From positions 1 through 58,617 of the IMG/VR virus record IMGVR_UViG_3300020455_000016: 58,617 nucleotides of DNA, one strand, 5' to 3'. A program made the position numbers and the translations under genes. Of the stretch, positions 54,487-56,264 are shown one piece after another. The notes under the pieces are model-generated. The model saw only the letters and a program-made list of their open reading frames with translations. It ran no database searches and was not told the DNA's origin. Origin of the DNA: a virus. Position 1 is the stretch's first letter. Every line of letters starts with the position of its first letter.

Positions 54487-54530
54487 ATTATATAATAAAA
54501 AAAGACCCCTGTCAAGCAGAGGTCTTTAAG
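54487..54530 (-). terminator. Terminator overlapping a consensus sigma-70 promoter
   Basis: Minus strand AAAGACCTCTG-loop-CAGGGGTCTTTTTTT terminates the DUF4278 peptide gene. The loop and 3' arm contain TTGACA (54510-54515), and exactly 17 bp on is TATAAT (54487-54492), so the 3' half of the terminator doubles as the promoter for 54209-54466. Confidence 0.75.
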
Positions 54531-54547: not shown

Positions 54548-54688
54548 TTAACTACAAGGAACTGCTTTAGTTACCTTGTGTCCACGATACATTAAATCGT
54601 GACGCTGACGTTTGGTTGCTTCATCAAGTACCATTCTACGATACTCTTCAGAGTCATAAGAGACTCCTCTGTAAGTGACTTGTGCCAT
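54548..54688 (-). CDS. DUF4278-type small peptide under riboswitch control (46 aa)
   Basis: Reads MAQVTYRGVSYDSEEYRRMV, LDEATKRQRHDLMYRGHKVT and ends KAVPCS. The YRGVSY opening and second YRG match the short DUF4278 cyanobacterial/cyanophage peptides. Two glutamine-riboswitch-like aptamers precede it. In cyanobacteria short proteins under glutamine riboswitches include GifB, which inhibits glutamine synthetase; a comparable job here is an inference. Basic, helical middle. Has its own promoter and terminator. Confidence 0.75.
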   Translation of the reverse strand: MAQVTYRGVSYDSEEYRRMVLDEATKRQRHDLMYRGHKVTKAVPCS

Positions 54689-54716
54689 TGGCTTGTCCTC
54701 TGGATAGGGTGGATGA

Positions 54717-54766
54717 CCCCGTTCCTTCAGTCCACATTTGCGTCCTCCGAAGAGGATGAACGATCC
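54717..54766 (-). ncRNA. Glutamine riboswitch-like aptamer, gene-proximal copy
   Basis: Minus strand: CGTTC (54762-54758), hairpin ATCCTC-TTCG-GAGGA, CGCAAATG, then GGAACG (54725-54720). The order CGTTCA / hairpin / (G)ACGCAA(G/A)T / GGAACG is that of the glnA and downstream-peptide RNAs, which bind L-glutamine. Directly upstream of the DUF4278 peptide. Confidence 0.75.
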
Positions 54767-54810
54767 GTTCCGTGTCGGCTTACTTGCGACCCTTTTGGGT
54801 TGAACGATGT
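54766..54810 (-). ncRNA. Glutamine riboswitch-like aptamer, promoter-proximal copy
   Basis: Minus strand: CGTTC (54806-54802), hairpin AACCC-AAAA-GGGT, CGCAAGTAAGCC, then GGAACG (54771-54766). Same arrangement as the gene-proximal copy; the two aptamers are separated by only a few bases. Confidence 0.75.
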
Positions 54811-54843
54811 GTTAATATTAACACAGGTATAGTATATAGTCAA
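54809..54843 (-). promoter_or_regulatory. Promoter of the riboswitch transcript with palindrome over the -10
   Basis: Minus strand TTGACT (54838-54843), 17-bp spacer, TAATAT (54815-54820). A perfect 16-bp palindrome, GTGTTAATATTAACAC (54809-54824), covers the -10 box, a plausible repressor site. Confidence 0.6.
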
Positions 54844-54856
54844 GTAGGTTTGTATC

Positions 54857-55036
54857 CTATGATACAGTTTTATAATCTTTTAACATTTGATCTCTGTACA
54901 CTCTTGCCTGTTCATATCTTTCACACAACTCATTCATCCAAATTCTTTCTTCTAATGTAACTGATACTCCATCAGTTGTAAGCATTCTACAGCAGATGTC
55001 AGTTAATTTTAGCATGGTTAAACTATTTGTTCTCAT
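54857..55036 (-). CDS. Small unknown protein after the nitrilase gene (59 aa)
   Basis: Reads MRTNSLTMLKLTDICCRMLT, TDGVSVTLEERIWMNELCER and ends RDQMLKDYKTVS. Start coupled to the nitrilase stop by ATGA (55033-55036). Helical with three cysteines; unknown function. Confidence 0.65.
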   Translation of the reverse strand: MRTNSLTMLKLTDICCRMLTTDGVSVTLEERIWMNELCERYEQARVYRDQMLKDYKTVS

Positions 55037-56013
55037 ATCGAATGTATTAAAGAATTATTAGCAGGAGGAATCATATTTTGAAGTGTACCATTATCCTGAT
55101 GATAAACAAGGTTATGATATTTTAGTTTAGCATTTACATCTAAATCATAGTAAAAATAATGTCTCCCATATCTTGGTGCTTGTACAACCCATTCACCTAA
55201 AGGATTTACTACACCACTTTGTGAAGATGTTTTGTATTTGTCAATAGTATTATCATTACCATCCCATCCCCATTCTACACAAGTATCAACTGTAAGAATA
55301 TGACAAATCCCAGAAAATGCAGTCATTTTTAACCACCCTTCATGCCATGTGTCATAAACATTATCTCTGATACTAGCAAGATGTTTTCCTGCTTTCTCAA
55401 TTGTCTCGTCAGGAAATTTATACCCATTAGTTGAATGGAAAATTAAATCTGGACAATCTTCACAAACATCTTCCATAATAGACTTAATTGATACCATACC
55501 AGGATGATTTCCATTCTTTCTACTGAAACTCCACATATCATTGCATATCATACCAATACAACGCATGTCAAATTTATGTAACTCAAAAATATGAGGAGGT
55601 TCAAAAGAAGCAACACAAGGTTGATCAAATCCAACTATTACCGTTTTATCAGTTATATTATACAAGTCTCCAAGTTTATTATAATACCTAATTTGATTAC
55701 GAGCAAGATTTCCACCTTCTTCTTCGGAAAGAATACAAGTTCCTAAATTTAATCCTACACCAACTTTCTTTTGATAATCTTGAACTTCTTTTAGAGCATC
55801 AGAAAGATTTATATCATCTCTCGCTTCTTCTGTTTTTCTATACAACCAATGATAAGGATCGTAACCAGAAAGACAAGCCTCTGGTGTTTGAATTATATCT
55901 ACATCATTATCTGCAGCCCAGTCTAAAGCTTTCTTAATTTCATTGAGATTATATGCAATGCTCACGTCATTGATTGGAATCTGTGCTCCAGCAATTCTAA
56001 TTGTATTACTCAT
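55033..56013 (-). CDS. Carbon-nitrogen hydrolase (nitrilase superfamily)
   Basis: 326 aa from ATG 56013 (MSNTIRIAGAQIPINDVSIA), just after the upstream stop; ATG 56034 is an alternative. The Glu-Lys-Cys triad is visible: Glu45 in QTPEACLSGYDP, Lys123 in YNITDKTVI, Cys157 in IGMICNDMWSF. Such enzymes hydrolyse nitriles, amides or carbamoyl compounds, releasing ammonia. The AGAQIP opening fits the amidase/nitrilase clans; substrate cannot be read. The adjoining glutamine-riboswitch cassette makes a nitrogen-scavenging role attractive. Confidence 0.8.
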   Translation of the reverse strand: MSNTIRIAGAQIPINDVSIAYNLNEIKKALDWAADNDVDIIQTPEACLSGYDPYHWLYRKTEEARDDINLSDALKEVQDYQKKVGVGLNLGTCILSEEEGGNLARNQIRYYNKLGDLYNITDKTVIVGFDQPCVASFEPPHIFELHKFDMRCIGMICNDMWSFSRKNGNHPGMVSIKSIMEDVCEDCPDLIFHSTNGYKFPDETIEKAGKHLASIRDNVYDTWHEGWLKMTAFSGICHILTVDTCVEWGWDGNDNTIDKYKTSSQSGVVNPLGEWVVQAPRYGRHYFYYDLDVNAKLKYHNLVYHQDNGTLQNMIPPANNSLIHSI

Positions 56014-56015
56014 AA

Positions 56016-56264
56016 TTATTTGGGTGTTCTCCATGTATCAGTTTGATCAATCAACCACTCATACTTATCAGTTTGCTCTTTACATGATGGGCAAGTAAGT
56101 GATGAGAATGACAGACGATATATCCTAGTTATACTCTCACAATTTGGACACTTAATATTCTTACCATTCTTACCAGCACGTGACCGTTTGCATATAAGTT
56201 GGTAGTCTTCAGTGACTTTTTGTTTGCCACCGTTGATTATAATTTTTTTAGTTGCTTGTATCAT
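56016..56264 (-). CDS. Zinc-ribbon protein (82 aa)
   Basis: Begins MIQATKKIIINGGKQKVTED. Two CPxC knuckles, KCPNCES and TCPSCKE, separated by 16 residues, make a C4 zinc ribbon; a basic segment (ICKRSRAGKNGKN) precedes them. Possibly nucleic-acid binding. Followed within 2 nt by the nitrilase. Confidence 0.7.
   Translation of the reverse strand: MIQATKKIIINGGKQKVTEDYQLICKRSRAGKNGKNIKCPNCESITRIYRLSFSSLTCPSCKEQTDKYEWLIDQTDTWRTPK

Follow-up and report, generated by a model that had tools for sequence, protein, structure and literature searches.

A probable interleaved double glutamine riboswitch preceding a DUF4278-type peptide gene in a marine cyanophage

The IMG/VR virus record IMGVR_UViG_3300020455_000016 (58,617 bases, analysed over its whole length and hereafter called the window) carries an RNA element that is probably a single interleaved double glutamine riboswitch, serving the phage as a nitrogen-sensing ON switch with two coupled pockets. 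The element spans positions 54719-54806 of the minus strand, as delineated using covariation and a model built from its relatives, and contains two glutamine-aptamer motifs. The initial annotation took these motifs for two consecutive, complete aptamers; covariation indicates instead that the copies complete each other, and we therefore describe one interleaved RNA and not a tandem. Based on the covarying positions, the interleaved fold is very likely to be correct, and glutamine is highly probable as the ligand, whereas the ON direction, assigned by host precedent, is only slightly favored over its opposite. It is also fairly likely that the element belongs to an architecture of interleaved, permuted glutamine pockets whose hairpins act as cargo slots for small genes, with the start and stop codons of these genes forming part of the RNA that binds the ligand, the window representing the empty-slot form.

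A promoter, the two motifs and a gene for a 46-aa peptide follow one another on the minus strand where they had originally been placed, and all window coordinates given below refer to that strand. Copy 1 (CGTTCA-ACCCAAAAGGGT-CGCAAGTAAGCCGACACGGAACG, 54806-54766) and copy 2 (CGTTCA-TCCTCTTCGGAGGA-CGCAAATGTGGACTGAAGGAACG, 54762-54720) are separated by the linker GAU (GAT in the DNA, 54763-54765). The covariance-model search suggested in the initial annotation did not leave both copies unmatched: copy 2 scored 37.8 bits against Rfam RF01739 (E = 1.2e-4 when all families were searched over the whole window), above the cut-off of 35 bits, in keeping with the proposed membership of the glutamine riboswitches, and copy 1 remained under the cut-off at 23.0 bits (E = 0.013 in a 501-base stretch and 3.5e-4 in a single-family search). 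Neither copy in the window reached the RF01704 cut-off of 33 bits in the Rfam search (29.0 bits for copy 2). Two relatives score 33.0-33.1 with RF01704, and the RF01704 alignment of the window leaves many positions unpaired in the pseudoknot P2 helix that would involve sequence 3' of GGAACGG. Model R2, which comprises 90 positions and was built from 43 relatives excluding the window and its 94% identical neighbor, recovered the whole element (54806-54719) with 94.7 bits and an E-value of 9.6e-22, so the element did not arise by chance. Comparison with solved structures returned no meaningful match.

Pattern scans of viral contigs and annotated phage records yielded 250 loci harboring both copies. 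Each copy belongs to one of two fixed types, and type A always precedes type B. The type A (first) core reads CGCAAGUA-AGUCG or AGCCGACn-CGGAACG and the type B (second) core reads CGCAnn-CGACU or nGnnGACU-(G/A)AAGGAACG. Copy 1 invariably lacks the E-loop strand GAAG, copy 2 invariably lacks AGUA, and the linker between them measures 3-6 nt in 250/250 loci. A scan of bacterial genomes with the tandem pattern returned scattered matches in unrelated phyla and no cyanobacterium, and is uninformative on host genomes.

In the proposed fold, all helices nest: the outer P1, P2A, P3, the inner P1 closed by the linker, and P2B. The outer pocket would be a three-way junction of the glutamine-I type, with an AGUA/GAA E-loop and P3, to which copy 1 contributes its 5' half (CGUUCA, P2A and CGCAAGUA) and copy 2 its 3' half (GAAGGAACG-G). 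Its P1 is predicted to pair the 5' strand CGUUC (54802-54806) with 54720-54724 and is followed by the P2A hairpin (ACCC-AAAA-GGGU, 54789-54800) and by the outer core CGCAAGUA (54781-54788), which provides the pocket nucleotide C54786 and the E-loop strand AGUA. The E-loop strand GAA(G) and the P1 3' strand GAACG (54720-54728, supported by covariation and by the RF01739 alignment) precede the second pocket nucleotide, G54719, which forms a long-range pair with C54786. P3 joins AGCCGACA (54773-54780) to UGUGGACU (54729-54736), a pairing identified by covariation. The inner pocket, for which copy 1 supplies its 3' end (GGAACG-G) and copy 2 its 5' half (CGUUCA, P2B and CGCA), would be a circularly permuted copy sitting at the far end of P3, with the linker closing a P1 formed by GAACG (54766-54770) and CGUUC (54758-54762), the latter assigned from pair probability, the alignment and RNAalifold. 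This inner junction comprises the P2B hairpin (UCCUC-UUCG-GAGGA, 54743-54756), has no E-loop and is provided with its own long-range pair, between G54765 of the linker and C54740. Both pockets would bind L-glutamine and may be coupled through P3, and glutamine binding would free the ribosome site of the DUF4278-type peptide, resulting in a translational ON switch.

Covariation establishes the outer pair, P3, P2A and P2B. The outer pocket pair, connecting nucleotide 3 of the copy 1 core to the nucleotide following copy 2, is C-G in 216 loci and G-C in 31, so that the pocket-closing long-range pair of the glutamine-I class is present in 247/247 loci with two identities, whereas the stand-alone alternative, in which the same copy 1 position pairs with a linker nucleotide, is broken in 30 loci. 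The 43-sequence alignment contains 36 CG and 7 GC pairs at the outer interleaved position and no broken one; each of the stand-alone pocket pairs fails in 6 rows. P3 joins the stretch between AAGUA and CGGAACG in type A to the complementary stretch preceding (G/A)AAGG in type B. Its closing pair is free of mismatches in 239 loci (G-C 113, U-A 98, A-U 26 and U-G 2), and its two strands covary in length, being 5-5 or 8-8 in 239 of the 250 loci. When changes were mapped on the downstream-peptide tree, the U-A closing pair of P3 yielded 13 supported independent contrasts (a mean of 12.6 concordant and 0 discordant, p = 0.0002) and the outer pair yielded only 5 supported independent contrasts, all of them concordant. 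The inner long-range pair swaps just once among the relatives (C-G 242, G-C 1).

Analyses of other kinds agree with the cross-copy pairing. In four relatives, the RF01739 model aligns across both copies, taking in P3 together with the 5' half of the first copy and the 3' half of the second, with scores of 41.0-43.6 bits that exceed those of single copies. The P1/P2/P3 junction and the AGUA/GAA E-loop of glutamine-I are accordingly found across the two copies and not inside either one. An unguided RNAalifold consensus recovered the outer P1, the inner P1, P2A and P2B, the P1 strand of copy 1 being paired with copy 2, and the predicted pair probability in the window is ~0.93 for the outer P1 versus ~0.03 for a stand-alone P1. 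All four P1 strands are invariant among the relatives and, as they never vary, are uninformative on the fold. P3 of the window has 6 Watson-Crick pairs out of 8, with two mismatches, and is absent from the predicted minimum-energy fold.

Two complete, independent glutamine aptamers arranged in series and acting alone would account for the P1, P2 and core order carried by both copies, for the ability of copy 2 alone to pass RF01739, and for the 157 glutamine doublets counted as pseudo-cooperative in the PMC9481103 survey. A stand-alone model also gives the window 100 bits, compared with 94.7 bits for the interleaved model. We discarded these bit scores as a test of the fold, since they do not discriminate and slightly favor the stand-alone arrangement; sequence conservation dominates both models. 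This arrangement is nevertheless very unlikely in view of the stand-alone pocket pairs broken in 6/43 rows against 0/43 for the interleaved pairs, the reciprocal absence of GAAG and AGUA, the joining of both copies by P3 and the narrow range of linker lengths. A related possibility is that the element toggles between a state with stand-alone P1 helices and an interleaved state. The outer and inner P1 indeed compete with the stand-alone P1s, and four invariant P1 strands would be expected if each had two partners, although this invariance could come from pocket constraints alone. The low predicted probability of the stand-alone P1 in the window and the lack of any variable position covarying in the stand-alone register make such toggling quite unlikely.

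The direction in which the interleaved riboswitch would act bears on the ribosome site. A Shine-Dalgarno-like AGAGGA (54696-54701) is complementary to UCCUCU of P2B, and this pairing, which dominates the unconstrained predicted ensemble of the window (~0.58), would fit a Shine-Dalgarno sequence freed by the folded aptamer. Over 46 relatives, this complementarity is not general, which led us to reject P2B as a universal anti-Shine-Dalgarno, and simulated ribosome-site accessibility under constrained folding (0.33 to 0.35) indicated no clear direction. In other leaders, a CUU(C/U)AG motif beside the Shine-Dalgarno covaries one-directionally with the core CU(G/A)AAG: no A faces C (41 to 0), and G faces U in 42 cases and C in 24 (Fisher p = 1.7e-6). 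The motif is missing from the window and was dismissed as its anti-Shine-Dalgarno. A possible upstream ORF with its start codon at AAAUG in the core of copy 2 was also dismissed, the U of this AAAUG being the variable side of a covarying P3 pair. As the simulation gave no direction, the ON reading rests on weak anti-Shine-Dalgarno covariation and on host precedent, glutamine riboswitches of both types being known to activate expression in hosts and type 2 to activate DUF4278 genes (PMC6316151). The interleaved fold might conversely operate as a translational OFF switch, above all for ORFs nested in the hairpins of relatives, where the ATG is positioned 3-7 nt inside the arm of P2 and the P2 strands on either side of the ORF covary, so that a stabilized fold should block the start codon. 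The window has no nested ORF and host switches of types 1 and 2 are reported as ON (PMC6316151, PMC6698751), and we regard the OFF direction as unlikely.

Most relatives possess a short ORF inside one or both aptamer hairpins, with the start codon in the stem; the P2A position is a slot for ORFs of roughly 62-75 aa and the P2B position for ORFs of 49-66 aa. In a sample drawn without regard to hairpin state, 73 type B hairpins are open (long loop) and 36 closed, and both hairpins are closed, as in the window, at 24 loci. Long B loops have an ATG within the P2 arm, 3-6 nt past CGTTCA, in 185/186 cases and a stop codon at either of two fixed core positions in 176/186. Type B P2 retains 5.12 of 7 Watson-Crick pairs across the ORF, compared with 3.81 upon permutation (0/2000), with exchanges including CCCAUG/CAUGGG, CUUAUG/CAUAAG and CUCAUG/CAUGAG. 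Type A hairpins are long at 57/247 loci, 55 of these 57 having an ATG in the P2 arm, and their P2 receives weaker support (5.07 versus 4.59 permuted, 2/2000). Because an aptamer interrupted by a gene goes unreported in Rfam searches, several phages had seemed to be single-copy. The nested peptides tested belong to phrog_504 and phrog_6471, two families without known function; others look unrelated, and many have a hydrophobic N-terminus. Examples of nested ORFs include those of L261 (1244-1467), L252 (1295-1735) and L243 (1565-1970), among others; their stop codons lie in the core or in the P2 3' arm, and the slots are shared by several small proteins that seem unrelated to one another.

Upstream of the element, the annotated TTGACT-17-TAATAT promoter is present as described and matches the consensus at 9/12 positions, with the -35 hexamer at 54838-54843 and the -10 hexamer, 17 nt further, at 54815-54820. 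An NtcA-type box, GTATCATAGGATAC (GTA-N8-TAC, 54852-54865), lies 8 nt upstream of the -35 hexamer, which gives the window the sequence arrangement of an NtcA-regulated promoter. An exact GTAN8TAC is found upstream in 154 of 249 distinct relatives, where 4.1 are expected by shuffling, and 8 nt is also the commonest gap between the box and TTGAC among relatives. The box suggests that transcription is under host nitrogen control as well. NtcA sites are known in cyanophages, for which 2-oxoglutarate signaling through NtcA has been proposed (PMC3037559). The -10 hexamer is also the center of a perfect 18-bp palindrome, TGTGTTAATATTAACACA (54808-54825). A palindrome stem of at least 6 occurs in 158/236 relatives versus ~17 by shuffling, and the arms differ between phages (TGTGTTA, GGTCTA, GGTATG, TGTCATG) yet stay self-complementary with the -10 box central. 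As the predicted transcript would start after the palindrome, the latter may function at the DNA level or within a read-through transcript.

The downstream gene (54548-54688, ATG at 54688) encodes the 46-aa peptide, which had been annotated as DUF4278-type. Profile searches bear this out, with an E-value of 2.8e-21 for phrog_5049 and a DUF4278 (PF14105) score of 24.0 (E = 4.9e-5) that falls just under the Pfam gathering score of 25.3; the P-TIM68 peptide scores 26.0. Both YRG motifs are present, and among the relatives 233 of the 235 downstream genes carry the YRG motif. DUF4278 constitutes the N-terminal moiety of the glutamine synthetase inactivating factor IF17, in which it is dispensable for inhibition, and in Prochlorococcus an NtcA motif accompanies the glutamine riboswitch of a DUF4278 gene (PMC6316151). 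The phage peptide shares only the DUF4278 part with IF17 and may work as a mini-IF17 that targets nitrogen assimilation in the host. The conserved NtcA box and the link between DUF4278 and IF17 (PMC6316151) lend further support to the earlier suggestion that the phage reads the nitrogen state of its host.

The region matches marine cyanomyoviruses (Kyanoviridae), the best being AG-345-P14 (94% over 401 bases), followed by P-TIM68 (77%). The riboswitch unit is bordered by its own promoter and by an intrinsic terminator (54501-54527, an 11-pair stem and a T tail), and is flanked upstream by a CN-hydrolase-type gene with a small ORF and downstream by thyX/phoH-type genes. A perfect TTGACA-17-TATAAT promoter (54487-54515) overlaps the terminator and probably serves the next gene. 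The CN-hydrolase-family protein (333 aa, 55033-56034; phrog_36475, E = 4.8e-88) is a phage amidase-type enzyme that, near the riboswitch, could bear on nitrogen. In several cyanophages, a manA RNA (RF01745, 142-188 bits) directly follows the DUF4278 gene (L250 1956-2141, L245 2180-2377, L243 2179-2378 and L263 1703-1897) and is followed by talC in L250 and L263; an Rfam search of the whole window found no manA RNA. A related viral contig, L025, contains a PhotoRC-II RNA (1021-1116, 57.1 bits).

The element shares with glutamine-I (glnA RNA, RF01739) the CGUUC/GAACG P1, the P2 hairpin, the AGUA/GAA E-loop, P3 and the terminal long-range pair, but its P3 carries a second, circularly permuted pocket and the P2 loop of relatives can hold an ORF. 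Its CGUUCA-hairpin-CGCA...GGAACGG order and C19:G41-type pair are those of glutamine-II (Downstream-peptide RNA, RF01704), which also controls a DUF4278 gene in marine picocyanobacteria (PMC6316151), whereas no P2 helix is required here 3' of GGAACGG and the window scores below the RF01704 cut-off. The C19:G41 pair ends the pocket of the solved glutamine-II structure, and the same crystallographic study described two molecules that exchange domains and a functional form made of two pieces (PMC6698751), of which our element looks like an intramolecular version. Tandem glutamine riboswitches are known from Weinberg 2010 (PMC2864571) and the PMC9481103 survey; the accessible parts of both describe two motifs in a row as successive aptamers, and their doublet descriptions there mention neither interleaving nor hairpin ORFs. 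Additional File 1 of PMC2864571 reportedly hints at a mechanism involving conserved peptide residues. The tandem glycine riboswitch likewise combines a pair of homologous pockets within a single RNA, where coupling between them is expected (PMC9481103). The cis-regulatory glnA RNA of cyanophage S-CREM1 (PMC9964418), a 99-nt call spanning both halves, and the glutamine riboswitch of AG-345-P14 (PMC9004378), the closest relative of the window, correspond to the same element, and each was reported as a single Rfam hit without analysis of structure, tandem or ORF. In the accessible literature, we came across neither the interleaved fold nor ORFs lodged in aptamer hairpins, and priority is not certain.

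The glycine aptamers are complete and successive, whereas here helices are shared and one aptamer is permuted. Interleaving offers a structural explanation for the constant spacing of 3-6 nt and recasts the apparent tandem riboswitch as an allosteric RNA with two sites that can be tested. A sharper dose response from the doublet is plausible and would arise from two pockets sharing one helix. Since a glutamine element tallied as a doublet can be one interleaved sensor, such counts and the corresponding dose-response models need checking. The genes lodged in the aptamer hairpins of relatives would couple translation directly to aptamer folding. A single phage transcript would thereby receive two nitrogen signals, 2-oxoglutarate via NtcA and glutamine via the RNA, and the output of both would be a peptide related to a regulator of host glutamine synthetase.
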